NCBI GenBank assembly: GCA_003566675.1
Contig: PXCI01000142.1
Location: 1 to 36,253 of the forward strand
DNA: 36,253 bases
DNA from: Clostridia bacterium
GTDB lineage: Bacteria > Bacillota > Sulfobacillia > SLMV01
Direction of reading: 5' to 3'
The notes beneath the pieces are model-generated. The model was not told where the DNA came from and made no database searches. It saw only the letters and a program-made list of their open reading frames with translations. This document shows positions 20,929 to 36,253 of this stretch, one piece after another. Every line of letters starts with the position of its first letter. Position 1 is the stretch's first letter. The translations under genes were made by a program, and so were the position numbers.

Positions 20929-21414
20929 TTATGGAAGATGGAGGAAATTTCTTGCCTGTCGGTACGAGTTTTCCCGAGCTTCCTCGCGCATCCAACGGTT
21001 GAGCAGGTACATCGCCACCGCCAGGTAAGGCCCGGCGATGAGCTGATGGGTCAGGGTCGTGGGGGGCAAATCGTGGATCCAGTGGGGGAACATCCCGACC
21101 TCGATGATCCTCTGGGCCACAGCCAGAGGGAAGGCAAAGCGGAAGTAGGTGAAGAAATCGTCGAGCAGATAGAGGTGAGGAAACCCCCACTCCCGCTGCT
21201 CAGGCCACAAGAGGAAATAGACGATGTCCCCTGAAAGTTTGACAGCCGCAAAAAAGACGATGAAACGGGCGAAATGAGGAAAGTCTGGAGCCGTAGCATC
21301 CATAAACCACGCGCTGAACTGGCCCAGCACCAGTGCTGCGGCTGCGAGCAGGGTGAACCTCTGCACCCTCGGCATATCAGCCCCCCTTCCCGATGCTGCA
21401 GTCGGAAGCATCAT
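20929..21414 (-). CDS. Small integral membrane protein, family not recognised
   Basis: Last gene of the ABC-GlmL string. Hydrophobic segments lie around residues 20-37 (FTLLAAAALVLGQFSAW), 50-70 (FIVFFAAVKLSGDIVYFLL), possibly 85-102, and 122-140. Conserved-looking aromatic and charged residues (YFLLWPEQREWGFPHLYLLDDFFTYFRFAFPL) lie between. The track start ATG 21414 overlaps the stop of the preceding gene (ATGA). An internal ATG at 21375 (MPRVQRFTLL) has a better G-rich Shine-Dalgarno six bases upstream. I can assign no function; the coupling to the upstream gene suggests joint action. Confidence 0.75.
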   Translation of the reverse strand: MMLPTAASGRGADMPRVQRFTLLAAAALVLGQFSAWFMDATAPDFPHFARFIVFFAAVKLSGDIVYFLLWPEQREWGFPHLYLLDDFFTYFRFAFPLAVAQRIIEVGMFPHWIHDLPPTTLTHQLIAGPYLAVAMYLLNRWMREEARENSYRQARNFLHLP

Positions 21415-22781
21415 GCCGATGATTTCCCTGCGACGATCTCCACATTTACCACGGGAACCACCGCCCTGCGCCCGTCTCTGAGCAGCACCCTGATAGAAGG
21501 CAACTCTGCCTCGGTCTCATATCTTTGGCTCAGGGTCAACACCTCCTCCACCTCGCCGTAGGCCCCAAAATACGGAGAAGTGATGATTCGAACAAGTTGG
21601 CCGGGTTGTGGCTCCCCCTCCGCAATGCTGACCTCGGAGAAGGATTCCCCTCCATCGACCGGGACTGGGATCAATACCTCGGGCCTCTGGGCCCCCGCCC
21701 GGACCTGCGTCCTGCCGTTGATAGACAGCATCACACCCTCATACAACCTCAACACAGCGACAATCTCCCGGGGAAGACTCAGGCGGCCAAATCCCTCGGT
21801 GAGGATAATGGTCATCGATAGGTCCTCTTCTCCTGTCATCCCCGCCCCGAGTTCTGCCTTCATGAAATGCACAAGATCCAGTTCATCGAGACCACCGACG
21901 ATGATCCCACGGGCCCCATATTCCTCTGCCCGGGAAAGGACCGCCTCATCGGCTATCCCAGCCAGGGCCACCACCCGGTCTGCCACCTGGGCATCCACAT
22001 CCTCTGGGCGTATAACCCGGTCGGCATCACCGAGGACGAGAAGTTCCCCAAAGGCCTCGGCGCCCACTCCAAAGACGCCGTTAAGCACCACCGAGGGTCC
22101 CCGGATCACCACGCCCTCGTCCCCCAGGATCTTCTCCACGGTACCCGTAATGTGCGCCGCTAGGCGGGTGACCTGCATCGGCCGCACGATGTAGACCAGG
22201 CCGTTGTGCGCATCAACACGCTGGATTGTTCCTGCCGCAGGCGCGTAGGCGTAGACCATCCCAGCGGCCCCGGGGCTGGCTGCAAGAACGGCTCCCTGCT
22301 TGACCTCTTGCCCCTCCCGATACTCCATGTACATGCGCACCATGGCCGGCCATACGTCCAGCTGCCGGGCAACATTGACCACCAACACCGGATCGGCCGA
22401 CTGGGCATCCTCTCTTATCAGTATTCTACCGTGCACGGCGGACACGTATTCCACCACGCCGCCCACGGGGGACTGGACGGTCGTGGATCCTCCGAGGATC
22501 CCCTTCTTCATGCGGGCTAAGATATCGCCCTTGGTGACGCGCTGCCCCACCGCCACCTGCAAGGATCTCTGCATGTCACTGCGAGAGATCCGGGGTCGAC
22601 CCATTTCGGACTTCAGGTCCACCACGTAGGGATCTCCGGGGATGAACTCTGTCCGAGCCACGAGGGTGTCAGGGCTAACCCGGTCTCCCTCGGCCACCAG
22701 GATCTCACCCGGAAGGGGAAGGCGCCTCTCCCGCCGCACCGTCTCCCTGCGTATCACTGAATAATGTTCTCCTCCGGTCAC
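21411..22781 (-). CDS. Barrel-sandwich / KOW-like protein downstream of GlmL, function unknown
   Basis: 456 residues, no signal peptide, largely beta-rich. The N-terminal third has lipoyl-like hammerhead repeats (LPGEILVAEGDRVSPDTLVA, VAVGQRVTKGDILARMKKG, QSPVGGVVEYVS), and around 150-200 another such block (GQEVKQGAVLAASPGAAG). No lipoyl- or biotinyl-lysine motif is evident, so these are probably structural. A central alpha/beta part (VVALAGIADEAVLSRAEEYG-ARGIIVGG) and a C-terminal KOW-like module (GQLVRIITSPYFGAYGEVEEVLTL, ending VVPVVNVEIVAG) follow. The start is GTG 22781 overlapping the GlmL stop, with GAGGAGG seven bases upstream. The strict coupling suggests partnership with GlmL. Confidence 0.8.
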   Translation of the reverse strand: MTGGEHYSVIRRETVRRERRLPLPGEILVAEGDRVSPDTLVARTEFIPGDPYVVDLKSEMGRPRISRSDMQRSLQVAVGQRVTKGDILARMKKGILGGSTTVQSPVGGVVEYVSAVHGRILIREDAQSADPVLVVNVARQLDVWPAMVRMYMEYREGQEVKQGAVLAASPGAAGMVYAYAPAAGTIQRVDAHNGLVYIVRPMQVTRLAAHITGTVEKILGDEGVVIRGPSVVLNGVFGVGAEAFGELLVLGDADRVIRPEDVDAQVADRVVALAGIADEAVLSRAEEYGARGIIVGGLDELDLVHFMKAELGAGMTGEEDLSMTIILTEGFGRLSLPREIVAVLRLYEGVMLSINGRTQVRAGAQRPEVLIPVPVDGGESFSEVSIAEGEPQPGQLVRIITSPYFGAYGEVEEVLTLSQRYETEAELPSIRVLLRDGRRAVVPVVNVEIVAGKSSA

Positions 22782-24652
22782 CGCACTACCTCCTCACTAA
22801 TATCACTACGCTCCAGATAATCCGACGGGTACGCATCCAGCGTCTCCACCCAGGACCGGACGGCCTCCATGCGCCGGTCGTCTCTACGGGGGAACCGGAT
22901 TGGTCGGCCGCGGCCGTCGATGATCAGGCCCACTTCACCGCCGCGGACGTCGGCCCTCACCCGGACCCCCGGCCCGTCCCCCACGTCAAAGGAAGATCGA
23001 GGGACGATATCCAGGTGGACACTCTCATCGGCAGCGAGGGGCAGGACCTTGAAGCTTCCCACTCGGATCAGCTCAGAGGTTTCCTCCCCGGACTCTGAGG
23101 TCAGGTGCATCTCAGCCATCACCGTCCCCCGTCTCCCCTCTCCCAGGGGCGCGATCACGGTTGCCAGGGGTACGAGGCAATCACTGACCAGCACCTGTTC
23201 GGCCACATCGGGCAGCAGATCCGCCACGGCCCCCAGGTGGGGCATCATGAAGGCGCGGTCCACGTACAGCCGAACCACACCCTCGGGTTGGGTGGCGTCC
23301 AGCATCATCATGGCCGCCTGCGCCCGGCGAGGGGCGTGGGACAGCAGTCCACCGCTCCCCACAATCACATCCACCTCGTTCATGTTTACCAGGGTCTGCC
23401 CGGTACTCGTCTGCTCCAGGGCATGGTCGTAGGTGCGTGTCTGCTTGATTCCCTTCAGGCCCACTGCCAGTTCACGGTGTTCGGCCAGGGCCAACCTGAG
23501 GGCCTCGCGCCCCACGGCCTGTTCGAGCATCAGGTCCCGCAGGGTGACCGGCAGGGCCGAGGGACGAATGGTCTTGTTGTAGAGCCAGTTACGCAGGTCC
23601 CGATCCGAAACCGAAATCGGAAGCCACCGCATGATCTGCTCCTCCCCGGCCTGGGTGAACACATTGGCGACGCTGTAGCTCATCCCGATGTTGGCGCTGA
23701 CGGAACGGTTGAAGGTTCCCCCCATCACGCTGAACGTGTCTGTTGTCGCACCGCCAATGTCCACGCCGAGGACGTTCACATCGTACCTGGCCGCCATGGT
23801 GCGCATCATCTTGCCTACGGCCGAGGGGGTGGGTTGGACGTGCTTATTGGCCCACTCCAGGATCGTTTTATAGCCCGGGGCCTGCTCCATGACATGGTCA
23901 AGAAACAGATCGTGGATCTTGCCCCGAACCGGCTCCAGGATCTCCTCCTCCAGGGTGGGTCGGATATTGTCAACCGTGTGCACATCAAAGCTGTCTTTCA
24001 TGATGTGGGCAACCACATCCCTGGCATTCTGATTGCCGGCAAAGATCACGGGCAGATTCCGGTCATCCCCCAACCTGGAACGTGGGTTTGCCGACGCCAC
24101 GTATTCTGCAAGAGCTGCGACATGAGAGACGTTCCCCTGGTTGGTACCCCCGGCCAACAGGACGATGTCGGGTCGCTGGTTACGGAGCAACCTGACCCTC
24201 TCTACCACACTGCGGCCGTCATCGGTGGCGACCACCCCCATCACGATGGCACCCGCCCCCAGGGCCGCTCTCTCAGCACTCTCCGCCGTGATGGCCCGCA
24301 TCAGGCCCACGCACATCATCTGCAGCCCGCCCCCTGCGCTGCTGGTGGCCACAAAAAGGTCTGCGCCGGACCCATCGTCGGATCGGGGAGTAATCAACTG
24401 GTCGTCCTTGAGAAACCTTCTCGACATCTCTTCTTCCAGGCGCACCAGGGCAGCCCGAAGGCCAATCATTACATCCTCCTGGGGCGCCTCGACGGTGGTT
24501 TTCGCTTCTGCCCGTCCGGTGACCCGGTAGTGCTCATTGGTTCGTTCGATCAGCACAACCTTCGTCGTGGTGCTGCCCACATCAACGGCCATGATGCTGT
24601 TGTACGGGAAATCCGTCTCTGTCATGCCGATTGCGTCCTCCAATCCTCGCAT
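22778..24652 (-). CDS. GlmL/MutL-family ASKHA ATPase, long form
   Basis: The two ASKHA nucleotide-binding loops are plain: IMAVDVGSTTTKVVLIER at the N-terminus and NVLGVDIGGATTDTFSV in the middle. Family blocks include ATSSAGGGLQMMCVGLM, LLAGGTNQGN, VIFAGNQNARD and VDVIVGSGGLLSHAPR. GlmL is encoded with B12-dependent glutamate mutase in clostridia and is thought to act in mutase assembly or reactivation. This protein is 624 residues, about 160 longer than GlmL, the extra part being a beta-rich C-terminal domain (VRVRADVRGGEVGLIIDGRG). No B12 mutase subunit is nearby; it follows ABC permeases instead. The start may be ATG 24652 or ATG 24625 (MTETDFPYNS, GGAGGA ten bases upstream). Confidence 0.88.
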   Translation of the reverse strand: MRGLEDAIGMTETDFPYNSIMAVDVGSTTTKVVLIERTNEHYRVTGRAEAKTTVEAPQEDVMIGLRAALVRLEEEMSRRFLKDDQLITPRSDDGSGADLFVATSSAGGGLQMMCVGLMRAITAESAERAALGAGAIVMGVVATDDGRSVVERVRLLRNQRPDIVLLAGGTNQGNVSHVAALAEYVASANPRSRLGDDRNLPVIFAGNQNARDVVAHIMKDSFDVHTVDNIRPTLEEEILEPVRGKIHDLFLDHVMEQAPGYKTILEWANKHVQPTPSAVGKMMRTMAARYDVNVLGVDIGGATTDTFSVMGGTFNRSVSANIGMSYSVANVFTQAGEEQIMRWLPISVSDRDLRNWLYNKTIRPSALPVTLRDLMLEQAVGREALRLALAEHRELAVGLKGIKQTRTYDHALEQTSTGQTLVNMNEVDVIVGSGGLLSHAPRRAQAAMMMLDATQPEGVVRLYVDRAFMMPHLGAVADLLPDVAEQVLVSDCLVPLATVIAPLGEGRRGTVMAEMHLTSESGEETSELIRVGSFKVLPLAADESVHLDIVPRSSFDVGDGPGVRVRADVRGGEVGLIIDGRGRPIRFPRRDDRRMEAVRSWVETLDAYPSDYLERSDISEEVVR

Positions 24653-24655
24653 CTG

Positions 24656-25906
24656 TCAAAGAATCCTCCGTCTGTGTAGTAAATCTTGCACGGTCATATT
24701 CCTCGCCATGCCCGAGGGCAGGGCCGCACCCACGTAGAAAACGGCGGCCGCAACCAGGGCAGCAATGATAAAGGAGCGGGGGGTCATCACGTAGGGAACC
24801 AGGGTATACCGGATCAACAAGGTGACCACGATCCACGTTCCCACGGTGCCCGCGATGATGCCCAGAAGGGCGGTCAAAAAGCCCTCCTGAAGGAGCATCA
24901 TCCGCACTTCGTCGTTGAACGTGCCCAGGGCTTTGAAAACCCCCAAATCCCTCTGCCTTTCCAAAAATGCCAGCAGCAAAACGTTCAGAACGCCCAGGGC
25001 ACAAAAGAGCAGGATCAGGATGATCACAATCCTGCCAGAGGAAAAGACCCCGGTCAGGAGTCCCCCGGCCATCTGCTGCCCGTGGATCCGGCTGATCATC
25101 GTCGCGCCGGGCAAAAAACCCCTCGCCTTCCTTGAAGCTTCCCCGGGTGCCCCCGAGCTTAACAGGATGAAGTTGCCCCCGGACTCCCCGGCAAGGGGTG
25201 GAAGGTGGACCCCGGGCAACCGAATCATTGGGTCACCGAGAAAGGGGTCATCGGTGGCAAAGAGCCCGCAGACCTGGTAGGTGGCGCGGTGGGACATCCC
25301 CCCCGAATCGAGCCACTCCACGTTGAAATCATGCCCCACTTCCAGGCCCACACTCCGGGCTGCTTCCAGCGGGAGCAGGATCTGCCCCTCGCCGGTGGGG
25401 AGGCTCCCCTCCTCGAGCTGAAGCATCGCAGCGAACCCCGGGCCTGCCCCTTCCTCGAAGGCACCATCTTCCAGCCCGACCAGGTAATGGTGACCCAGGG
25501 GACTATACACCGGGACCCGATGGCCCGAGGCAAAGGCCCTCACCTCGGGGATGAAGTTCAGCCGGTGAATCTGATCTGTCGACCAGCCCGACTCCCGGAA
25601 AGCAACCACATCAGCAATCATGGGGATCTCAGCCACCTGGCCGCGGAAGCTCAGCTCTGTTGCACTGAAATACGAATCAGACAGGACAAACACCAGTACG
25701 GTCAGGGCAACGCACAGCGCCATGATCGCCGCCCGCCACTTCCTCCGCCGAATGCTCCTGGCCGAATAGGGGAACATGAGAGTCCAGGTGTTCTTCACAA
25801 ATCGGAAGGTGCGGGCGTTCAGATTCGCCAGCAACCGGGCCACAGGCGACAAAATAATCTCCAGGGAGGTCTGGATCCCCTTGTCGTCCCCTCGTCCGGA
25901 AGCCAC
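24656..25906 (-). CDS. ABC transporter permease, FtsX/MacB-like (B2)
   Basis: An N-terminal membrane anchor (AAIMALCVALTVLVFVLSD) is followed by a ~200-residue extracytoplasmic domain (containing VPVYSPLGHHYLVGLEDGAF). The FtsX core has three helices near the C-terminus (IVIILILLFCALGVLNVLLL; FLTALLGIIAGTVGTWIVV; FIIAALVAAAVFYVGAAL). The coupling segment ERQRDLGVFKALGTFNDEV contacts the ATPase. The track starts at 25981, but GTG 25906 (VASGRGDDKG) one base after the ATPase stop, with GGAGG six bases upstream, is preferred. That gives 416 residues. Substrate unknown; MacB/LolC-type transporters usually act on periplasmic, lipoprotein, peptide or drug substrates. Confidence 0.85.
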   Translation of the reverse strand: MASGRGDDKGIQTSLEIILSPVARLLANLNARTFRFVKNTWTLMFPYSARSIRRRKWRAAIMALCVALTVLVFVLSDSYFSATELSFRGQVAEIPMIADVVAFRESGWSTDQIHRLNFIPEVRAFASGHRVPVYSPLGHHYLVGLEDGAFEEGAGPGFAAMLQLEEGSLPTGEGQILLPLEAARSVGLEVGHDFNVEWLDSGGMSHRATYQVCGLFATDDPFLGDPMIRLPGVHLPPLAGESGGNFILLSSGAPGEASRKARGFLPGATMISRIHGQQMAGGLLTGVFSSGRIVIILILLFCALGVLNVLLLAFLERQRDLGVFKALGTFNDEVRMMLLQEGFLTALLGIIAGTVGTWIVVTLLIRYTLVPYVMTPRSFIIAALVAAAVFYVGAALPSGMARNMTVQDLLHRRRIL

Positions 25907-25907
25907 C

Positions 25908-26597
25908 TCACACCTCCTCCCTCTCGATGGCCCCGTCGCGCATGTAGACAATCCGCGAGGCATAGTTCCTGGCAGCGTCATCGTGGGAGACCACCACGAA
26001 GGTCTGCCCGCTCTCCTCGTTCAGGCGGCGAAATAGATCCATGACCTCTGCACTGCTGTGGGTGTCCAGGTTCCCGGTGGGCTCGTCGGCCAGTACCACT
26101 TCAGGCTCATTGGCCAGGGCCCTCGCCACGGCAACCCGCTGCTGCTCTCCTCCCGACAGCTCATGGGGGTAATGGTCCATGCGGTCACTGAGCCCCACGG
26201 ATTCCAACAGGTCCTGGCATCTTCTCTGTGCCTCTCGGACATCCAGGCCGATCAGCCGCATGGGAAGTTCAACATTCTCCTTCGCCGTCAGGTCTGGCAG
26301 CAGATTGAAGAACTGAAAGACAAAACCCACTTTCGTCCGCCGCATGCGGGCGAGGCTGTTCTCATTGAGGTCGCTGTACCGTTGGTCCTGCAGCATCACC
26401 TCGCCGAAGGTCGGCCGGTCCAGCCCTCCCAGTAGATTCAGCAGGGTACTCTTGCCGCAACCCGAGGGACCGGTCAGAAGCACAAACTCTCCCGGATAGA
26501 TGCGCATGGAAATACCGTCGACGGCCCTCACCCCCGCACCGACCAGAAAGATCTTGGTGAGATCCGTCGCAGTGACAATGGCAGCCTTCTCAGACAT
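25908..26597 (-). CDS. ABC transporter ATP-binding protein, MacB/LolD type (1)
   Basis: Complete nucleotide-binding domain in 229 residues: Walker A GPSGCGKST, Q-loop VFQFFNLLP, ABC signature ELSGGEQQRVAVARAL, Walker B VVLADEPTGNLD, H-loop VVVSHD. The 'N-L-D-T' D-loop and short length are typical of the LolD/MacB/FtsE group that pairs with FtsX-type permeases. The start is ATG 26597, with GGAGGTG eight bases upstream, overlapping the previous permease by eight bases. Confidence 0.96.
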   Translation of the reverse strand: MSEKAAIVTATDLTKIFLVGAGVRAVDGISMRIYPGEFVLLTGPSGCGKSTLLNLLGGLDRPTFGEVMLQDQRYSDLNENSLARMRRTKVGFVFQFFNLLPDLTAKENVELPMRLIGLDVREAQRRCQDLLESVGLSDRMDHYPHELSGGEQQRVAVARALANEPEVVLADEPTGNLDTHSSAEVMDLFRRLNEESGQTFVVVSHDDAARNYASRIVYMRDGAIEREEV

Positions 26598-28083
26598 CCC
26601 TCAACACCTCCATGGTGGTCTGCTTCAGCGCCAGGTAGGCCGGCAGCAGGCCGAACAACCCCGCCACCAGAACCGACGCCCCCACGACCATGAATCCCGT
26701 CCTCAGGGTCATGATCCCAACCTCGGCCACACTCACCGCCGACAGGGCATAAACCCCCGTCACCATCAGTCGGACGGCGACGAAGCCCAGGGTCGCCCCG
26801 ATCATCGACATCAGAACCGCTTCAATCAGAATCAAACCCATCACCTGGCTACTGGCCATGCCCACCGCCTTGAGAATGGCCATCTCCTTCCGTCGCTGCA
26901 TGACAAGGACGTACATATCTCCGACCAGCAAAAGGCCGGCGACAAGGAAAATTGCCACAACCAGCAGGGTCGACACGTCGGCGGGCACGGCGCTCTGTCC
27001 CCTCTGCTGTCGACCGATGATGGCCTGTTCAGGGACCGTCCGCACCGTCGTCCCCGGCAGCTGCTGCTGCAAGCTGGCAGCGATCTCCTTGGCCCGGAAC
27101 ATATCGTCCAGAACCACGTTCAACTGATAGGCACGCGGCGCCTGTCCCGGGGGAGCGATCGTCTCCCAGATCTTCTGCCATGTCGCCGCAGGGATGAAGA
27201 GATCTTCCGTCTCGACGTAGTGCTGGACCATGATCATGGTACCCGTGCCCCCGCCGGGACCGACCTCGAGCACGTAGCCCCCGGTTTCCGGATCCCTCAG
27301 GGGCCTGACACTGGTGGGAAAAGCAAAGAGCCCCACCACCTGCAGATCAAATTCCGTGATGTCGTCCCAGTTCCAGAGGGGATATCCCTCGGCGTCGTAT
27401 CCAGCCAGGGCGGGAACCTCGAGGGTACGGACATCCCCCACCTGTGGAACAGGATATCCGGGCCTGATTCCCTCCTCGGGGGGAAAGGCCCCGCGGTTGC
27501 CCTGGGCCAGGGCAACCAGGCTGCCCTCATCCTCAGGCTCCAGCCACCGCCCCCGGGCCAGGTAAGTTGAGACGTCCCACGTCTCATCGAGATCCGGATC
27601 CCGGGCCCTCAGGGGCGCAGGGTACCTCGCCTGTTGCCCCCCGATACCCGGGATCACCACCCTCGCTGGGAGTTTCAGCAGGGGCTCAACCGCAGCGACA
27701 CCCGCAGGAAGACCATCGCCGAGAGGGTCATCCTCTGCCGCGAAAAACAGGGTCTCACCGGAGGGGGAGATCAATCCCTCCTCGTAGATTCGCGGGTGGA
27801 AGAGCAGCAGGTCGCTCAGTCCATAATCACCGCGCAGGCCCCACTCCCAGGGAGTATCGCCGGCAGCCTGGGCATCCTCCGCGCCCACGCCGAGACGCCC
27901 GGGGTAGATCACGATGTCTGCCCCCATCAGTGTCCTGTGCTGCATCCACGACACCTCCGGATACCCTCCTCCGAGGGATAGAGAAGCCGTCATCACCCCA
28001 GCGGCAATCGCGACGCCGATCATCCCCAGAAGGTTCTTCGTCCAGTTGCGCCGAACGTTTCTGACGGCCAATTGCCAGAGCAT
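26590..28083 (-). CDS. ABC transporter permease, FtsX/MacB-like (A2)
   Basis: An N-terminal helix (KNLLGMIGVAIAAGVMTASLSLGGG), a large extracytoplasmic MacB-PCD-like domain of ~300 residues and three C-terminal FtsX helices (TLLVVAIFLVAGLLLVGDMY; LILIEAVLMSMIGATLGFVAV; GFMVVGASVLVAGLFGLLPAY). The coupling segment is RRKEMAILKAVGMASSQV. The stretch RTLMGADIVIYPGRLGV also occurs, modified, in the permease at 30129, so the two are paralogues. The track start is GTG 28092; ATG 28083 with GAGG eight bases upstream looks better. Confidence 0.9.
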   Translation of the reverse strand: MLWQLAVRNVRRNWTKNLLGMIGVAIAAGVMTASLSLGGGYPEVSWMQHRTLMGADIVIYPGRLGVGAEDAQAAGDTPWEWGLRGDYGLSDLLLFHPRIYEEGLISPSGETLFFAAEDDPLGDGLPAGVAAVEPLLKLPARVVIPGIGGQQARYPAPLRARDPDLDETWDVSTYLARGRWLEPEDEGSLVALAQGNRGAFPPEEGIRPGYPVPQVGDVRTLEVPALAGYDAEGYPLWNWDDITEFDLQVVGLFAFPTSVRPLRDPETGGYVLEVGPGGGTGTMIMVQHYVETEDLFIPAATWQKIWETIAPPGQAPRAYQLNVVLDDMFRAKEIAASLQQQLPGTTVRTVPEQAIIGRQQRGQSAVPADVSTLLVVAIFLVAGLLLVGDMYVLVMQRRKEMAILKAVGMASSQVMGLILIEAVLMSMIGATLGFVAVRLMVTGVYALSAVSVAEVGIMTLRTGFMVVGASVLVAGLFGLLPAYLALKQTTMEVLRDV

Positions 28084-28088
28084 TGCGT

Positions 28089-28826
28089 TCACCTCGCAGA
28101 GAAGTCGTCTTGCCCGTATTGTCGCACCAATTCACCGTCTTCCAGCTGGATCACCCGGGACGACCGCTCTGCCACGCCCGGGTCGTGCGTGACAAGCACC
28201 AGGGTCTGCCCCAGTCGTTTGTTCAGATCCTCAAGAGCTGTCAAAATATCGTCGCTGGTCCTCTGGTCCAGATTGCCCGTAGGCTCATCTGCCAGGATCA
28301 CTGCGGGCTCATTCGCCATGGCCCGGGCGATCGCCACCCGCTGCTGTTCACCCCCCGAGAGCTGTCGGGGAAAATGATCACCGCGATGCCCCAGCCCCAC
28401 CATCTCCAGCAGGAAATCGGCCCGCTCCTCCCGTTCGGGTCGACTCATCTGGGTATTGAACCCGAGGGGGAACCGGATGTTCTCCCATGCCGTAAGATGA
28501 TCGACCAGGTAGAAGCGCTGGAACACAAAACCCACGTCGAAGCGTCTCAACTCGGCCAGCTCCCTGTTGCGCATCAGGCCGATATCCCGCCCGCGAAGGA
28601 GGACGTCGCCCTTCGTGGGAGGCTCCAGGGCCCCCATCAGGGACAGTAGGGTCGTCTTGCCAGAACCCGAGGGGCCCATGATCGATGCAAACTCTCCCTC
28701 CACGATGCTCAGGTTGACGCCGCGAACGGCGGCAACCACTCCGGCGCTGGTCTGATACTCCTTGTAGACATTCTGAGTCTGCAGGACAGCAGGTGCCTCA
28801 ACAGACCTACCCTCTGCTGGGCTCAT
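28089..28826 (-). CDS. ABC transporter ATP-binding protein, MacB/LolD type (2)
   Basis: 245 residues with Walker A GPSGSGKTT, Q-loop VFQRFYLVD, signature LSGGEQQRVAIARAMANE, Walker B VILADEPTGNLD and H-loop LVTHDPG. It resembles the ATPase at 25908 in every motif and length, indicating duplication within the operon. It overlaps the upstream permease by ATGA and has GGAGGG seven bases before its ATG. Confidence 0.96.
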   Translation of the reverse strand: MSPAEGRSVEAPAVLQTQNVYKEYQTSAGVVAAVRGVNLSIVEGEFASIMGPSGSGKTTLLSLMGALEPPTKGDVLLRGRDIGLMRNRELAELRRFDVGFVFQRFYLVDHLTAWENIRFPLGFNTQMSRPEREERADFLLEMVGLGHRGDHFPRQLSGGEQQRVAIARAMANEPAVILADEPTGNLDQRTSDDILTALEDLNKRLGQTLVLVTHDPGVAERSSRVIQLEDGELVRQYGQDDFSAR

Positions 28827-30136
28827 CCAGATCCCTCCTTCGTTCCTACTGGCTCAGGCCAGATGTTCACCAGGGTCCACCAGTCGAAGTCCGTATCCCC
28901 CCGAAGATGGGAGCTCAGATCCCGGGAGCCGCTCAGAATCCACGCAACCCGGCCGCCCCAGAGAACGAGTGCACCCTGGGCAATGGCCCAGAGAATCATG
29001 GTGAGGACGGGCAGGGTCGGCGTCGGCCCATTCGCCGGGGCCAGGGCGAAAATGCCCAGGAGAACCACGCCCCCCAGGACGGTGCCTGCAAGGGAATCCC
29101 AGATCAGCTGAGTCCGGAACATCCTGCCGATGTCCTCCGGGCTCATACCCACCACCGCATAGATCCCAATGATCACCTGTCGATCCAGAACGATCACGAG
29201 CACTGTCAGCGTCACGGCGATGCCGACCACGAGGAACATCAAACCCACCAGGCCGCTGACGCTCGCAGAGCTGGTTCGCCCCAGGTGGGCCATCCGATCC
29301 CGCACGGCACCCCGGTACCAGAAGGTCGGTCCCACCCGGTTGATGAAGGGCGAAGGCAAACCCCCAAAAGAGGCCAGGTATCGGTTGTTCTCGGGAGAAC
29401 CCGCCGATGCCGACAAGTCGAAGGCGTAAGCTGGAGCCCGGACCCGGGGGAGACGATCCCGCAGATCCCTGACCAGGTCCTCCACCGACCCCCTGGGTGA
29501 ATGCCACAACCAGAGGGCATTGGCCCGGGGCATGAAAGCTAGGGCGGCCATCTCCCCCACATCGCCCAGAATGAACTCCGAAAAGACGTCCTCCGATCCA
29601 AAGACACCGCTCACGGTGAACTCTGCGGGACGGTAGTCGCCCGTTTCCGGGTGAAGATAACCGAAGGAAAAGGGCTCCCCCACTTCCAGAGCCAGCCTCT
29701 GCATAAGCGCCTCTGTGACCGCCACCTCGGAAACGCCACTGCCCGGAATCCTGCCCTCGGTGAAATCGATGCCGGTCCTGAACCGCACGTCATCAAGATC
29801 GACGCCCCAGGTCTCATGGGTGCCAGCGGCGGAGGTCATGTAGGTGATCACCCCGAACATGTTGTGCCTCGGCTGATGACGCACTGTCTCGATCGCACGG
29901 CCCAGATCCAGGGGTGTGCTCAGCCTCGTCGTCCAGTCAGGATAATAGACCAGCAGGGGAAAGGGCAGATCCAGGGGCTCGGTCTGGTGCGCTCCCAACC
30001 CTGCATCCTCTGACCAGATGCTGTACAGCCCATACATCACCAGGGATAGGGCAATGATAGCGATAATGATGGTGTGAGCCGTTCGGTTTGCCTTCCACTC
30101 CCGCCACACCAGGCTGAAAGACCCCTGATCACCCAT
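28823..30136 (-). CDS. ABC transporter permease, FtsX-like (B1)
   Basis: 437 residues: an N-terminal helix (TIIIAIIALSLVMYGLYSIW), an extracytoplasmic domain of ~230 residues (with FRTGIDFTEGRIPGSGVSEV), and C-terminal helices (GLVGLMFLVVGIAVTLTVLV; WDSLAGTVLGGVVLLGIFAL; LTMILWAIAQGALVLWGGRV). The coupling segment IGIYAVVGMSPEDIGRM corresponds to the 'G-V-F-K-A-L-G' segment of the downstream permeases but is more divergent. It overlaps the upstream permease by eight bases; ATG 30136 has GAGGTG nine bases upstream. Confidence 0.85.
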   Translation of the reverse strand: MGDQGSFSLVWREWKANRTAHTIIIAIIALSLVMYGLYSIWSEDAGLGAHQTEPLDLPFPLLVYYPDWTTRLSTPLDLGRAIETVRHQPRHNMFGVITYMTSAAGTHETWGVDLDDVRFRTGIDFTEGRIPGSGVSEVAVTEALMQRLALEVGEPFSFGYLHPETGDYRPAEFTVSGVFGSEDVFSEFILGDVGEMAALAFMPRANALWLWHSPRGSVEDLVRDLRDRLPRVRAPAYAFDLSASAGSPENNRYLASFGGLPSPFINRVGPTFWYRGAVRDRMAHLGRTSSASVSGLVGLMFLVVGIAVTLTVLVIVLDRQVIIGIYAVVGMSPEDIGRMFRTQLIWDSLAGTVLGGVVLLGIFALAPANGPTPTLPVLTMILWAIAQGALVLWGGRVAWILSGSRDLSSHLRGDTDFDWWTLVNIWPEPVGTKEGSG

Positions 30137-31703
30137 TGCGCATCACCTCTCCCGGCGAAAGCTTCATCATGCGGAGAAAGGGAATCGCCGCCACGAGCAA
30201 GCTCACGCAGAATACCACCCCCGCAACCAGCCCCAATCCACGGAGCAGATTCATTGCGATCGCCCACGGCCCCATGGCGTTGGACAGCCACAGGTGGATC
30301 AACATGGGACTGGCGAAAAGGTAACCCGCAAGGGTCCCAAGGGCCGAGATGACCAGGACCTCCGTAGTCGAAGAAATCAGCAGCTGCCAGTTGTGGCTGC
30401 CCAATGCCTTTAGGGTCGCCAGCTGCTTGCTGCGGGTGATCGTCAACACGTACAGGTTGCCCAGGTAAAGAAGTCCAGCCAGCAAAACCGCTGTGACCAG
30501 GAGCACTGCATCGAACCATCCTGGCGCCGACAGAAGAACCCTGTCCGAGGCGAGAAGATCGCGATAGCCGGCGCTGATGTCCTCCGGCGGTATGGCAGTC
30601 GTGACTATGGGCAGGTGATCCGACAGGGACACCATTTCTCCGGTCGTCATAACCGTGGCCCCCGGCGTCGCCTCCCGGATCCGGTCGGCCACCACGTTGA
30701 CCCGGGAGAAATCGGATACCACGACAAGATACTCCGTGACCTCGGCCCACGGGCCGCCCCCGGACTGGGCAAGGAGCCCGCCGAAAGTTTCCTCGCTAAC
30801 CCAGATCTCTGGCAGCGACAAATGCAGGGGCTCGTCAATGTAGCGGCCAGGAGGAGGTGGATCATCATCTGCAAACCGCACGATGGAACGAAGGCCCGCC
30901 GGGGTCAGGGCACTGCCGAGCCAACTGATGCGCCCGGCGGTGAACTCCAGGGTCCCAACCACGTCGAGGGAAACTTCAAGTCCCTGCACGGCATCTCCCT
31001 CCCCAGGCAGCACAAGGTGGACAGGATCTCCCGGGGCCACCGATGCATCCGCTCGAAGTGACGGCCCCCCCTGGGCCATCACGGCCCGGACACCATCCCA
31101 GCGATCATAGCCGTAGGTTTCAGCCTCGGGGCCACCGCCACGGATGATGTAGTTCTCAAGCACGCACACCGGTTCTCCCAGGTCATCTGGACCCAGGACG
31201 CGCCCCTGGACCAGCGCAGATGACAGGCCATAATGTTCATCGACGAGGGGATCCCTGGCCCGGATCTGCACCCACCAGGTGTAATCACCGCTGATCATCC
31301 TCGCAGGAATCGTCCGGTAAGGCGTCACGTGAAGGACACCCTCCACACCACGAATCTCCTCCGTCAAATCCCGAGACACGGATTCCTGGCCCATGATACC
31401 GTCCCGGACAATCCCGGGGAAGAAGTAAGCGGTAAGGCCGGGATTGTCGGGGGATCGTCGAATCATCTCCCATGCTCCCCCGGGCGTAGGCGATGAGGTA
31501 CCGGGAAGCCCCAGGGCCTCCGGAAGGACCACAATATCTCCCCCCAGGGCCGTCCGGGTCTCAAAATGCGCACCACCAGGCTCCCCCCCTGCCATGATCA
31601 GTGCCGAGACCAATACCACCGTGGCCAGCGCCACACTGATCATCGCCAGGGCGCTGCGCTGCAGGTTGCGAATCGCTGCCAACCATCCAAGGGTGAAAAA
31701 CAC
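30129..31703 (-). CDS. ABC transporter permease, FtsX/MacB-like (A1), first gene of the string
   Basis: 524 residues: an N-terminal helix (LAMISVALATVVLVSALIMAGG), an extracytoplasmic domain (with RTALGGDIVVLPEALGL) and three FtsX helices, e.g. AVLLVTAVLLAGLLYLGNLY and TEVLVISALGTLAGYLF. The coupling segment is RSKQLATLKALGSHNW. It is paralogous to the permease at 26590. The start is GTG 31703 with GGGAGG five bases upstream. Six ABC genes follow each other as A1-B1-ATPase2-A2-ATPase1-B2. Confidence 0.9.
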   Translation of the reverse strand: MFFTLGWLAAIRNLQRSALAMISVALATVVLVSALIMAGGEPGGAHFETRTALGGDIVVLPEALGLPGTSSPTPGGAWEMIRRSPDNPGLTAYFFPGIVRDGIMGQESVSRDLTEEIRGVEGVLHVTPYRTIPARMISGDYTWWVQIRARDPLVDEHYGLSSALVQGRVLGPDDLGEPVCVLENYIIRGGGPEAETYGYDRWDGVRAVMAQGGPSLRADASVAPGDPVHLVLPGEGDAVQGLEVSLDVVGTLEFTAGRISWLGSALTPAGLRSIVRFADDDPPPPGRYIDEPLHLSLPEIWVSEETFGGLLAQSGGGPWAEVTEYLVVVSDFSRVNVVADRIREATPGATVMTTGEMVSLSDHLPIVTTAIPPEDISAGYRDLLASDRVLLSAPGWFDAVLLVTAVLLAGLLYLGNLYVLTITRSKQLATLKALGSHNWQLLISSTTEVLVISALGTLAGYLFASPMLIHLWLSNAMGPWAIAMNLLRGLGLVAGVVFCVSLLVAAIPFLRMMKLSPGEVMRNG

Positions 31704-32198: not shown

Positions 32199-33608
32199 AT
32201 GTCTGCATTGACCCGTCAGTGCATTGCAAAGGAAGAATCCACCTTGCCTCACAAAGATGGTTTTGCCGAGATGGTAGGCGCCCGCATACGGGAGCTGCGA
32301 AGACAGGCAGGTATGACGCAACGCGACCTTGCCGGAGAGGACCTGAGTCCTGGCTTTCTGAGCCAGGTTGAGCGGGGTCTGACCGCCCCATCTCTGCACT
32401 CTCTTCACATCATCGCGGAAAACCTTGGCGTCAGCACATCAACCCTCATGCCCGATAGCCCCCTCGGGGAGGATGATTGCCGGCCAACAGTCGAAATTCT
32501 GCTGTCTCTTGCTGAATCCCAGCGCCTTATTGGCCAGATTGAGTCAGCCCTGGCTTCTGTGCAGCAGGCCCGCCGGGAACTGGAAGAGGAAACAACCGAT
32601 CGCAATCAGCTCAGGGCCGCCGCCTGCCTGCAGTCCGGGTTGGCTCATCTCGAAAGAAAGGCCAGCGATCTGGCCTTTTCGGATCTCACCGCGGCAGCGG
32701 AGCGGTTTGAAGCGACACCGGATCCAGAGGGCATCCTGAAATGCCTGCTGGGTATGGCAGAGATGCACTTCCAGCGCGAAAATCCCCTCCTGGCAATTCA
32801 GTTTTTTGATACTGTGATCCACCGAGCTGAGGAACTGGAAGAAGGACAACAAGATGTCTACCGGATGCTCGCCGAATGGGGACTCGGCCGAGCCTATCGG
32901 GCCCTCAAAGAGACAGAGACTGCAAGCGAATTGCTAGGCGAAGCCCTGACGCGCGCGAACGTGCAGACGGATATCACCCGGCAGGTGATGTACTCTGTGG
33001 AAATGGCCCAACAGAATCTGGCCGAAGGAAACTACGACGAGGCCCGGTATCACGCTAGCCGAGCAAGGACACTGTCAACGCTCAGCTTTACCCAGAAGGC
33101 CGAGGCTGAGATCCTGCACACCTCTGGTCTCGTCTGGGAAGATGCCGGAGAAAGAGACCGGGCCCTATCCTCTTTGTCTGATGCCGCGCAAATTGCCTCT
33201 GAGCTTGGCGACTCCATCCTTTTAGCCCAGATCCTACTCGCCAGGGGCACAATCCATCTCAGGGAAGACGACCTCTCTGAGGCCTCGGCGATCACCGCTG
33301 AGGCCCTGGCAATCATCGACGCCACATCCGAGCCGGTCCTGCGAGGACAGGCAGCCCTGCTCGCGGGGAAAGTGGCCTTTTCCAGGGATCAGCACTGCAG
33401 GGCCCAGACCCTGCTCACAGAAGCCGAGAGATGTTTCCGTGGGGCTGGGACGCTATCCATGCTGGCTCAAACCCAGGCCGAGCTGGGAAAGGTCTGTTTG
33501 GCCACGGGACAACGCGATGAGGCCCTTCACCGCTTCCGCAGGGCCAGCGACCTGTTCTCCCGGATTTCCCCGGGGGGCAGCCCGCCTCACCCACGGACCC
33601 ATCCCTGA
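32199..33608 (+). CDS. XRE-type HTH regulator with TPR array
   Basis: The N-terminal XRE/Cro helix-turn-helix (about residues 25-80) reads VGARIRELRRQAGMTQRDLAGEDLSPGFLSQVERGLTAPSL. The remaining ~380 residues are helical TPR-like repeats (e.g. AAACLQSGLAHLERKASDLAFSDL, LLGMAEMHFQRENPLLAIQFF, GRAYRALKETETASELLGEAL, ILLARGTIHLREDDLSEAS, LAQTQAELGKVCLATGQRDEALHRF). This is the layout of peptide-sensing RNPP-type regulators and of general HTH-TPR regulators; the ligand is unknown. ATG 32199 has a weak Shine-Dalgarno. TTG 32244 (giving MPHKDGFAEM) has AAGGAAG eight bases upstream and may be the real start. It is divergent from the ABC operon. Confidence 0.9.
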   Translation: MSALTRQCIAKEESTLPHKDGFAEMVGARIRELRRQAGMTQRDLAGEDLSPGFLSQVERGLTAPSLHSLHIIAENLGVSTSTLMPDSPLGEDDCRPTVEILLSLAESQRLIGQIESALASVQQARRELEEETTDRNQLRAAACLQSGLAHLERKASDLAFSDLTAAAERFEATPDPEGILKCLLGMAEMHFQRENPLLAIQFFDTVIHRAEELEEGQQDVYRMLAEWGLGRAYRALKETETASELLGEALTRANVQTDITRQVMYSVEMAQQNLAEGNYDEARYHASRARTLSTLSFTQKAEAEILHTSGLVWEDAGERDRALSSLSDAAQIASELGDSILLAQILLARGTIHLREDDLSEASAITAEALAIIDATSEPVLRGQAALLAGKVAFSRDQHCRAQTLLTEAERCFRGAGTLSMLAQTQAELGKVCLATGQRDEALHRFRRASDLFSRISPGGSPPHPRTHP

Positions 33609-34172: not shown

Positions 34173-34586
34173 CTATTGGTCGTCTTTGCCCAGGCGCGAA
34201 AGAAGCTGCTTTGCCAGGGAATCAAGATCCGCCCCCTGGGCCAGTTGCAACAGCTGGGCAATGTCGGGGCTTGGTGGCCGTTTAGAGCCCGTATCTGTGA
34301 GGGGCCGATCGATCACCCCGGCCCGCGTAAGCTCAGAGTATTCCTCTGGGCTGAGCAGCAACACCTCCAGCAGCTTGTTGATATACAGGGCTGAAGAATT
34401 CAACTTATCCGACAGAAGCATCATATCATCGGCGATGGTTTTCATGGCCGCTAGAGGCTTGACACTTCTTGGGTTCGACCCGCCCATCGCAGCACCCAGG
34501 TCTGCCATACTACGACCTGATGGCATCGCCTTTTCTGAACTGTCATTTGCCTCGTCTTTCGGCCTGTTCTTCTCCTCCTCCGTCAC
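34173..34586 (-). CDS. Helical protein, paralogue A of a tandem pair, function unknown
   Basis: 137 residues, no signal peptide or membrane segment. The acidic, disordered-looking N-terminus (TEEEKNRPKDEANDSSEKAM) precedes a helical core LAAMKTIADDMMLLSDKLN-SSALYINKLLEVLLL and a C-terminal helix DLDSLAKQLLSRLG. Core and tail are shared with the gene at 34950 (ADDMM-x-LS-x-x-L and LAK-x-LL-x-RLG). The start is GTG 34586. The leader GGGAGCGAGGTGATTGTGTG is nearly the same as that of its paralogue. A strong terminator follows. The family is not recognised. Confidence 0.75.
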   Translation of the reverse strand: MTEEEKNRPKDEANDSSEKAMPSGRSMADLGAAMGGSNPRSVKPLAAMKTIADDMMLLSDKLNSSALYINKLLEVLLLSPEEYSELTRAGVIDRPLTDTGSKRPPSPDIAQLLQLAQGADLDSLAKQLLSRLGKDDQ

Positions 34587-34949
34587 ACAATCACCTCGCT
34601 CCCCCCTACGACACCGTCAACTACCTCATTTATACCTGTATGCAGAAGATGCGATCGCTGCAACTCCTGAATTTCAAATGCAACAAGGATTCTGCCTGAC
34701 CCGCGGGCCACCCATGTACTGGCTTCAACCGTCGCATCGGGTGAGGTGAGTGCAAGTACTGCGAGGTAATGCAGCCCGGACTTGCCGAGTTGCTTCTGTT
34801 GCAATACCCGGATGCTCAGCAGCTACGTCTGCATCCAGGTTGGATCTCTGCGAAGACCAGGCTGATTTCGGGTGAAGAAGGTGCTCCCCTACTCTCCTGC
34901 CATTTGCTTTCCCATAGCGCAATCAACCCACCTCGACTGCTCCCGGTCT
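34587..34949. other. Intergenic region between the two helical paralogues
   Basis: About 360 bases. The part next to 34586 holds the conserved leader, with GCATACAGGTATAAATGAG (about 34633-34651 on the minus strand), also found before the second paralogue. It is a candidate promoter or leader element. No gene and no clear terminator for the 34950 gene were seen. Confidence 0.5.
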
Positions 34950-35303
34950 TCATTCGTTCATTCCCAGGCGCCGGAGCAGCGCCAATTTGGCCAGATCCTC
35001 GAATCGGACACCATCACCCGCCTGCGAGGATTCCTTGCTGCCAGGGTTAGACATCGCCTGTGAGCCCGGGTCAGAAAATCCCTGCCCCCCTGTCAAATTT
35101 ACGACCGCCAGGATATTCCTCATCTGTGTAGCAGCTTGTGCCAGCTGTTCAGACAGGTGCATCATATCGTCAGCCACGGCCTTCAATCTGTGAGTCGTGA
35201 GCTCACGAGACCCTGGATCGCTCGCACCAGTTATGGAACCGATCTCAGAATCTGATCGTCCTGCTCTGTGCTCGACTGGATCTCCCTGCAAATACTCAGG
35301 CAC
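34950..35303 (-). CDS. Helical protein, paralogue B of a tandem pair, function unknown
   Basis: The core HRLKAVADDMMHLSEQLAQAATQMRNILAVV and the tail FEDLAKLALLRRLG align with the gene at 34173. The central part is Gly-Ser-rich (GGQGFSDPGSQAMSNPGSKE). The ORF track begins at 35360, but GTG 35303 (VPEYLQGDPVEH), seven bases after GAGG, matches the start context of the paralogue and gives 117 residues. It is divergent from the hydrophobic repeat gene at 35479, with about 175 bases between the starts. No known domain recognised. Confidence 0.72.
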   Translation of the reverse strand: MPEYLQGDPVEHRAGRSDSEIGSITGASDPGSRELTTHRLKAVADDMMHLSEQLAQAATQMRNILAVVNLTGGQGFSDPGSQAMSNPGSKESSQAGDGVRFEDLAKLALLRRLGMNE

Positions 35304-35397
35304 ATAATCACCTCGCTCCCACCCAAAGGCATGTCGACTCTCATTAGTACCTGTATGCAAAAAGAGAAACTCTTGCTCCCAGGTGACAGCAAAATAG

Positions 35398-35427
35398 TTA
35401 ACATCTTCACGTGCGAGTGTATATTAT
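35398..35427 (+). promoter_or_regulatory. Predicted promoter of the first hydrophobic repeat gene
   Basis: TTAACA (-35), 18 bases, TATTAT (-10). The same GTATTATGTA block occurs before the second copy (35957-35962), 51-52 bases before each start codon, where the -35 match is poor. A sporulation sigma factor cannot be excluded. Confidence 0.5.
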
Positions 35428-35435
35428 GTACTGAA

Positions 35436-35464
35436 CCGAGGGCTCAGACCCCGAAATCCCTCGG
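35436..35464 (+). promoter_or_regulatory. Leader hairpin touching the Shine-Dalgarno of the first repeat gene
   Basis: CCGAGGG, 15 bases, CCCTCGG: a perfect 7-bp stem whose 3' arm overlaps the GGGGAGGTG ribosome-binding site. It could limit translation until melted. The equivalent stem is much weaker in the second copy. Confidence 0.5.
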
Positions 35465-35478
35465 GGAGGTGAAGATGA

Positions 35479-35628
35479 ATGCCTTTGCTCGGTACAGGTA
35501 GAACTGGTATAGACGAGCTGCTCCTGTTTCTCCTGCTGGCAGGAGGAGTGGGCCGCGACCGCACCGGCATCGATGGACTGCTTCTGTTCATCCTGCTCTC
35601 CGGCATGACAGGCCGTGGTCTCTGGTAA
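35479..35628 (+). CDS. Short hydrophobic repeat protein, copy 1 (too short for the ORF track)
   Basis: 49 residues starting MPLLGTGRTGIDELLLFLLL, with a second unit DRTGIDGLLLFILLSG. Two ~20-residue units follow G-R-T-G-I-D-x-L-L-L-F-x-L-L-x-G. Each unit alternates a Gly-rich turn with a short hydrophobic stretch, too short for an ordinary membrane helix. The start ATG 35479 lies nine bases after GGAGG, the same spacing as in copy 2; an ATG at 35475 is in another frame and gives only 8 codons. Small Leu-Phe-Gly-rich proteins of this style are common among spore formers, some of them spore-associated, but a spore role here is inference. Confidence 0.75.
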   Translation: MPLLGTGRTGIDELLLFLLLAGGVGRDRTGIDGLLLFILLSGMTGRGLW

Positions 35629-35654
35629 ATACCAAGCAGAGAACTCTAGCCGAC

Positions 35655-35680
35655 GTGGGGAAGCCTACAGGCCTCCCCAC
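35655..35680 (+). terminator. Strong hairpin after the first repeat gene
   Basis: GTGGGGAAGCC, TACA, GGCCTCCCCAC: an 11-bp stem with one mismatch. No T-run follows (CCCCCCTTG), so terminator strength is uncertain. The 5' half (TCTAGCCG-C-CGTGGGGAG) recurs at the very end of the window after copy 2. Confidence 0.55.
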
Positions 35681-36012
35681 CCCCCTTGACGAAAGTGATA
35701 CATTCCGCCACCCCAGACCTACGTTCAGGGACTACATCATCCGGATAAAGGAACACATAAACGGACATAAACGGGGGTGAGCAGAGGACAGCCCCGATGA
35801 TCTCCTCTCCTGCGTACTGCCCTGCTGTTATCAGCCATGGACCTGCAGCGGCCAGGACTGTGCTCTCAGACCGGCCACGGCCTGAGGCAGTAACTGAGCC
35901 AACCAATGGCAGAACCTACTGACCAACCTCTACGAACACATTTATGTCGCCGTGTGTATTATGTAGTGAGTCTGAGGGCCAGACCCACAGATCTTCCGGG
36001 AGGTGAGAATTA
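35681..36012 (+). other. Intergenic region between repeat genes
   Basis: About 330 bases without a recognisable gene. It contains a tandem direct repeat ACATAAACGG twice (35755-35774). At its right end it carries the duplicated leader of copy 2: GTGTATTATGTA, TCTGAGGGCCAGACCC and GGGAGGTGA. The 86-residue minus-strand ORF here lacks a convincing ribosome-binding site. Confidence 0.45.
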
Positions 36013-36222
36013 ATGCCTTTGTTCGACACAGCTGGCACCGGTCGTATGGATCAACTGCTTCTGTTTCTCGTGCTGGCAGGAGGAGTCGGCGGCGTCGGTC
36101 GCACCGGCATCGAGGAACTTCTGCTGTTCCCCCTGCTTTCTGGCGACATCGGTCGCACCGGCATCGATGAGCTGCTTCTGTTCATCCTGCTCACCGGCAG
36201 CCTTGGCAGAGGCCACACCTAG
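36013..36222 (+). CDS. Short hydrophobic repeat protein, copy 2
   Basis: 69 residues, starting MPLFDTAGTGRMDQLLLFLV. Three units are visible: GTGRMDQLLLFLVLAGG, GRTGIEELLLFPLLSG and GRTGIDELLLFILLTG. It is homologous to copy 1 with one more unit, so gene size varies by whole repeat units. ATG 36013 has GGGAGGTG nine bases upstream. The sequence after the stop (TCTAGCCGCCGTGGGGAG) repeats the region after copy 1, so the whole gene unit is duplicated and the series may continue beyond the window. The minus-strand 73-residue ORF over the same bases is a shadow. Confidence 0.78.
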   Translation: MPLFDTAGTGRMDQLLLFLVLAGGVGGVGRTGIEELLLFPLLSGDIGRTGIDELLLFILLTGSLGRGHT

Positions 36223-36253
36223 CTCATCCACAGATTCTAGCCGCCGTGGGGAG

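Follow-up and report, generated by a model that had tools for sequence, protein, structure and literature searches.

A long MutL-type ATPase and a barrel-sandwich protein form a conserved gene pair associated with membrane protein genes

Introduction

Proteins of the GlmL/MutL family (PF13941; NF040745 and NF040744) are accessories of glutamate mutase and ornithine aminomutase, which raises the question of what such an ATPase does at a locus that holds no mutase. This situation is found in a 36,253-nucleotide stretch of a Clostridia bacterium draft genome (contig PXCI01000142.1 of assembly GCA_003566675.1), referred to here as the window. A long MutL of 624 residues with an ATG start (22778..24652, minus strand) is followed there by a protein of 456 residues with a GTG start (21411..22781, minus strand), referred to as B, which has no Pfam family of its own. 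A preliminary description of this DNA suggested that the two proteins form an ATP-driven remodelling or assembly unit, perhaps for the neighbouring ATP-binding cassette (ABC) machinery. Comparative analysis shows that MutL and B constitute a near-obligate, jointly inherited two-protein module that is distinct from the B12-mutase reactivases. Our preferred reading, to which we give a probability of roughly 0.55, is that the pair works for membrane complexes as an ASKHA ATPase module, at this locus for those of an FtsX/ABC operon.

One inherited unit of two proteins

The MutL and B genes of the window overlap by four nucleotides (GTGA), a junction which can be read directly from the sequence and agrees with the preliminary description. 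The arrangement is general, as B follows MutL directly on the same strand in every one of the 90 unique adjacent pairs, with a median gap of 2.5 nucleotides. Mirror-tree comparison of the MutL and B distance matrices gives r=0.875, while permutations reach at most 0.17, and at loci with two pairs the partners match their own subfamily in 29 of 30 cases. The 80 named B loci divide into 59 with a MutL, 7 that are cut by a contig end and 14 in which B has no MutL nearby, mostly in Poribacteria and WOR-3. A natural MutL-B fusion is encoded in the window organism's own genome (L042:5606-8434, contig C69) as a stop-free protein of 942 residues, with MutL at residues 16-497 and B, without its KOW domain, at residues 591-940; its existence supports direct contact between the separate proteins, which we consider probable. 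The fusion gene has a MOT1-type molybdate transporter as its immediate neighbour, and a set of genes resembling an ABC metal-uptake system is close by.

Chance open reading frames are ruled out, since three further genomes of the family carry orthologues at 59-61% identity in an unchanged gene order. A plasmid or viral origin was rejected as well, since no match was found in plasmids and no relative in viral contigs.

The long MutL and its separation from B12 mutases

The window MutL has the same ASKHA core and conserved motifs as the mutase accessories. Residues 20-491 match PF13941 (E=1.6e-112), the phosphate-1, phosphate-2 and adenosine motifs are intact, and the ATP-site sequences DVGSTTTK, DIGGATTD and GSGG are nearly invariant in 25 relatives. 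About 130 further residues lie beyond the match, and in the predicted structure they include strands at residues 493-580 (DSSP), so that the extra C-terminal beta domain suspected earlier (about residues 493-585; 22898..23176, minus strand) is also found in the model. A mutase-linked MutL of 450 residues from the same genome, 31% identical in alignment, stops short of this domain. MutL and B were modelled separately as single chains, and the MutL model has a predicted local distance difference test score (pLDDT) of 87 and a predicted template modelling score of 0.86. Its best fold matches in the PDB are acetone carboxylase beta (E=1e-10), DnaK, PilM and diol dehydratase reactivase. Diol/glycerol dehydratase reactivase, DnaK, PilM and FtsA have the ASKHA fold in common with MutL, but whole-chain template modelling scores are low and their partners are unrelated. 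The protein falls below every equivalog or subfamily cut-off, with 221 of 475 bits for NF040745, 192 of 600 for NF040744 and 151 of 204 for TIGR01319.

The draft genome of the window organism encodes four MutLs. The first, of about 450-470 residues, adjoins an ornithine aminomutase on a separate contig; the second, of 611 residues, is paired with a B of 438 residues; the third belongs to the window pair and the fourth is the fusion. The earlier statement that no mutase, aminomutase or MeaB is near thus holds at the locus, where a Pfam scan of the 21-34 kb part of the window recognised neither a B12 mutase nor MeaB, but does not extend to the genome, in which the ornithine aminomutase has its own short MutL.

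A tree of 120 rows separates 20 short MutLs (430-495 residues, no B) from 100 long ones, each of 590 residues or more, with a support of 100 in the Shimodaira-Hasegawa-like approximate likelihood ratio test. B is adjacent to 91 of the 100 long MutLs. An OraE-like neighbour accompanies 12 of the 20 short MutLs, and none of the 100 long ones has an OraE-like gene up to five genes away. In a profile comparison of the kind that had been proposed for the B family, the presence of B shows no association with that of methylmalonyl-CoA mutase across 121 related genomes (46/53 vs 56/68, p=0.62). Strict co-occurrence with a mutase also fails: PF01642, PF09043 and PF06368, the three mutase families covered by the test, are all absent from 15 of 20 pair-bearing genomes, and although drafts can miss genes, those without the three families include two single-record Bathyarchaeota chromosomes along with anammox metagenome-assembled genomes. 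The separate clade, the 15 genomes and the lack of association with methylmalonyl-CoA mutase support the conclusion that the pair is not a B12-mutase accessory. Relative to the GlmL/MutL accessories, the window MutL differs in its C-terminal beta domain, in having B next door (as in most lineages), in lacking a mutase link, in its clade and in its sub-equivalog scores. Databases nevertheless label the long-pair ATPases "MutL / glutamate mutase", although the loci of the pairs found here, and often their genomes, lack such a mutase. The MutL family can now be divided into one branch linked to mutases and another linked to membrane proteins, and the B family has been defined.

The partner protein B

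B has a barrel-sandwich (hammerhead) region at residues 8-205 (22167..22760, minus strand), comprising an N-terminal half and two tandem repeats in the model (pLDDT 87) and alignment; the second repeat is absent from B forms of 370 residues. Profile search matches it to NqrA, to GcvH and to biotinyl and lipoyl domains, and Pfam gives weak matches to Biotin_lipoyl_2, NQRA_N and RnfC_N, the last two with domain scores above the cut-off. A conserved hammerhead-turn lysine, as expected of a biotinyl or lipoyl carrier, is missing: none of the columns that are invariant or nearly so in an alignment of 27 B homologues is a lysine, which bears out the earlier remark on hammerheads without a modification site. 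The barrel-sandwich domain is common to B and the N-terminus of NqrA/RnfC, but the remainder is unmatched, and a full-length match fails at 16.8 bits against a cut-off of 450. Only B has the swivelling-like domain and the KOW domain.

The central alpha/beta domain (residues about 242-355; 21717..22058, minus strand) may tentatively be assigned a swivelling/PA-like fold from the model, given weak resemblances to the PA domain of ZNRF3 in Foldseek (E about 0.01) and to RraA in the profile search (E=0.34). The KOW-like end noted previously lies at residues about 391-451 (21429..21611, minus strand), where profile search finds the SPT5/NusG KOW (E=1.9e-5), Foldseek finds NusG and DSIF, and Pfam places a KOW match at 393-414. 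No convincing transmembrane segment is predicted in MutL or B. B does not resemble a periplasmic adaptor of the MacA/HlyD kind, as it has no hydrophobic segment to serve as signal peptide or membrane anchor and reaches 12 bits against 95 for RND_mfp, and from its sequence it looks cytosolic.

Membrane modules in the neighbourhood of the pair

More than 570 B relatives were found in GTDB genomes using a profile from a 12-row alignment, a 27-row alignment being too divergent for the contig scan. The best 80 of these come from Bacillota, Planctomycetota, Zixiibacteriota, WOR-3, Poribacteria, Bathyarchaeota and others. Near many pairs lies a gene for a DUF6754 membrane protein (PF20539), then three membrane protein genes referred to as TMb, TMc and TMd, for which no Pfam model was found, together with a protein of 105-140 residues and a DUF483-like protein. 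Gene clusters of this module with the pair are conserved from Bathyarchaeota to Planctomycetota. Co-occurrence of B and DUF6754 is near-perfect: B is present in 46 of 46 DUF6754 genomes among the 121 relatives (p=2.6e-26), and a 300-genome phylum sample has 23 genomes with both, 1 with B only and 2 with DUF6754 only (p=5e-31), B being counted at strong E-values as most weak matches look like generic lipoyl domains. These p-values are inflated by the sampling of relatives, but the spread over phyla is independent of them, and DUF6754 is found in 40 of 41 B-bearing genomes of other phyla. Searches of the PDB found no relatives of known structure for TMc and DUF6754, and homology between these two is unsupported by profile comparison.

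A complete single-contig genome of the same class as the window organism, Ca. Fermentithermobacillus carboniphilus (G086, Bacillota), has 14 DUF6754 matches, and all of the ten that were opened (L181-L190) are quartets of DUF6754, TMb, TMc and TMd. Across genomes DUF6754 varies from 1 to 19 copies while MutL stays near 5, a pattern that fits one ATPase pair serving many quartets. Amplification to 14-19 DUF6754 copies per genome is seen in G086 and G019, where many quartets adjoin hydrolases of peptides or amides. In the window organism a single DUF6754 copy was detected (G000:C362, E=1.3e-93), with TMb and TMc beside it and the contig ending there; its neighbours are genes for asparaginase II and for peptidases of families M20, M55 and S58. 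The window pair can thus be regarded as a paralogue away from DUF6754: it has the long MutL followed by B and a genome with the quartet, and its own gene cluster has none. No literature on a MutL-B/DUF6754 system was found in open-access full text on GlmL/MutL, reactivases, DUF6754, PF13941 or ASKHA together with barrel-sandwich proteins.

At the window the neighbours are FtsX-type permeases and LolD-like ATPases, of the same kind as the LolCDE/MacB transporters. Unlike those systems, the window has an ASKHA ATPase, and B without a transmembrane segment, in one run with four permeases and two ATPases. The pair falls in a tree branch of 29 rows, of which 11 have FtsX/LolD neighbours, 6 have ABC-exporter half-transporters and the rest have no recognised transporter. 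FtsX/LolD genes adjoin the pair in families f1, f5, f20 and f40, and XRE-type regulators lie beside the FtsX-ABC-MutL-B genes in f5, f20 and f40 and beside MutL-B in f26. The suggested tie to the ABC machinery therefore stands in part: the link is conserved in several families of the class but not universal, and the main genomic partner of the wider family is the DUF6754 module. A second, diverged B-like barrel-sandwich protein (343-356 residues) is encoded in or near the regulator-FtsX-ABC-MutL-B module at L059:3-1073 and L158:3059-4090.

What the pair may do

As an ASKHA module, MutL would bind and hydrolyse ATP like GlmL, diol dehydratase reactivase, PilM and DnaK. B would be its cytosolic partner, docking on a membrane complex from the cytosolic side and linking the ATPase cycle to how this complex is assembled, gated or reactivated. 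PilM and FtsA are examples of ASKHA-type ATPase folds that can dock on membrane complexes. In most lineages the complex served would be the DUF6754-TMb-TMc-TMd quartet, and in the window branch the pair may have been reassigned to the FtsX/LolD exporters encoded in the same operon. The ATP-driven remodelling or assembly unit of the preliminary description remains an inference.

Several points weigh against this assignment. Many members of the window branch lack the FtsX linkage, some lying beside half-transporters or no transporter, so that the pair may serve varying clients or be loosely associated with any one of them. B has no MutL next to it in 14 of the 73 named loci with room for one, and the window locus has no DUF6754 gene, the FtsX/LolD genes holding that place. 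A shared neighbourhood also indicates a functional relation but no mechanism. The ATPase fold is already known and the mechanism of the MutL-B system is unproven. If the ATPase does power or assemble the membrane module, an ASKHA-driven membrane machine would extend from Bathyarchaeota to anammox bacteria and Bacillota; as it stands, DUF6754 and three unnamed membrane families have been tied to an ATPase. A bolder version can be entertained, with the odds clearly against it, in which MutL and B power or assemble DUF6754 quartets, many per genome, as a new ATP-driven membrane system of Bacteria and Archaea, probably for peptide or amide uptake, with one branch recruited to FtsX-type ABC exporters.

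The strongest alternative, itself unlikely, makes the pair the shared energising ATPase of a new type of transporter, with the quartets as substrate-specific parts for peptides, amino acids or amides in a logic like that of energy-coupling factor (ECF) transporters. The copy numbers agree with it, as do the peptidases and asparaginase II around the window organism's own quartet and the M20 peptidases, amidohydrolases, creatininase or threonine-degradation genes that adjoin several G086 quartets. These hydrolase neighbours are a lead, however: some quartets have no peptidase neighbour, no substrate-binding protein recurs, and TMc and DUF6754 lack a relative of known structure. At the window the pair would energise or license the FtsX/LolD exporters, which already have their own ABC ATPases.

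Two further proposals are improbable to a similar degree. The first is an ATP-dependent enzyme whose MutL would transfer phosphate to a small molecule, following acetone carboxylase or 5-oxoprolinase, with B as a carrier or channel that has degenerated. It would account for the best fold match, for a marginal Hydantoinase_A match (PF01968; 23.2 bits, the cut-off being 22.9), for the lipoyl-like folds of B and for the peptidase or amidase neighbours of related quartets. Identity to the acetone carboxylase beta/hydantoinase-type ATPases is however only 10-11%, no HyuB, carboxylase alpha or other catalytic partner subunit could be recognised around the pair, either in the Pfam-scanned part of the window or in the loci read, some but not all of whose neighbours were Pfam-scanned, B offers no conserved lysine, and the strong tie to integral membrane proteins would be left unexplained. 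The second, a signalling switch in which the pair would respond to ATP or ligand state and govern both the helix-turn-helix regulator next to the operon and the FtsX exporters in a stress response, is suggested by the XRE-type regulators in several families and by histidine kinase/response regulator-like genes between the MutL-B genes in G020, but the regulator is missing from most other pair loci, archaeal ones included. That the pair reactivates an unlinked B12 mutase elsewhere in the genome, as its domain family and the ornithine aminomutase might suggest, is very improbable and largely refuted by the aminomutase's own adjacent MutL, the separate clade, the 15 genomes without the three mutase families and the p-value of 0.62 for methylmalonyl-CoA mutase.

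The window operon and further observations

MutL and B are the seventh and eighth of nine minus-strand genes running from 31703 to 20929. The run opens with the FtsX-type permease FtsXd (30129..31703; PF02687, E=4.5e-9) and continues with FtsXc (28823..30136; PF02687, E=4e-5, just under cut-off, with four predicted transmembrane segments), the LolD-like ATPase ABC2 (28089..28826; PF00005, E=1e-32), FtsXb (26590..28092; PF02687, E=1.3e-8), which overlaps the next gene by 8 nucleotides, the LolD-like ATPase ABC1 (25908..26597; PF00005, E=4e-36; TIGR02211 235 bits, below the cut-off of 308) and FtsXa (24656..25906; PF02687, E=6e-15), separated from MutL by 3 nucleotides. The last gene encodes U161, a small membrane protein of 161 residues (20929..21414), whose gene shares its first 4 nucleotides with the end of the B gene; homologues directly follow B in G002, G004, G006 and G020. 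All junctions are overlaps of 4-8 nucleotides or gaps of 1-3, and as read from the sequence the whole run is probably translationally coupled. No MacA-type exported adaptor was recognised in the operon. Across a divergent region of 495 nucleotides lies an XRE-type regulator with helix-turn-helix and tetratricopeptide repeat domains (32199..33608, plus strand; HTH_3 and TPR matches). A promoter and terminator scan of the operon stayed near chance level and gives little information. The remainder of the window contains, by inspection, purine, guaA, hpt and groESL genes, and short minus-strand open reading frames at 34173-36231 encode a repetitive hydrophilic sequence (EKQKQLIDAGATD...) with a unit of about 54 nucleotides near 36088-36191.

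Two MutL paralogues have altered ATP-site motifs (ECGN..., DVGNILTK), at L056:2868-4640 and L050:8184-10040, and are possible pseudo-ATPases judging by these motifs; the former adjoins response-regulator and sensor genes inside a MutL-B cluster. A third lineage of short MutLs, without B or mutase, occurs in several families near amidase, DUF2179-like or murI genes and beside RNase PH and rdgB (L161, L162, L167, L170, L171, L172, L174 and L176).

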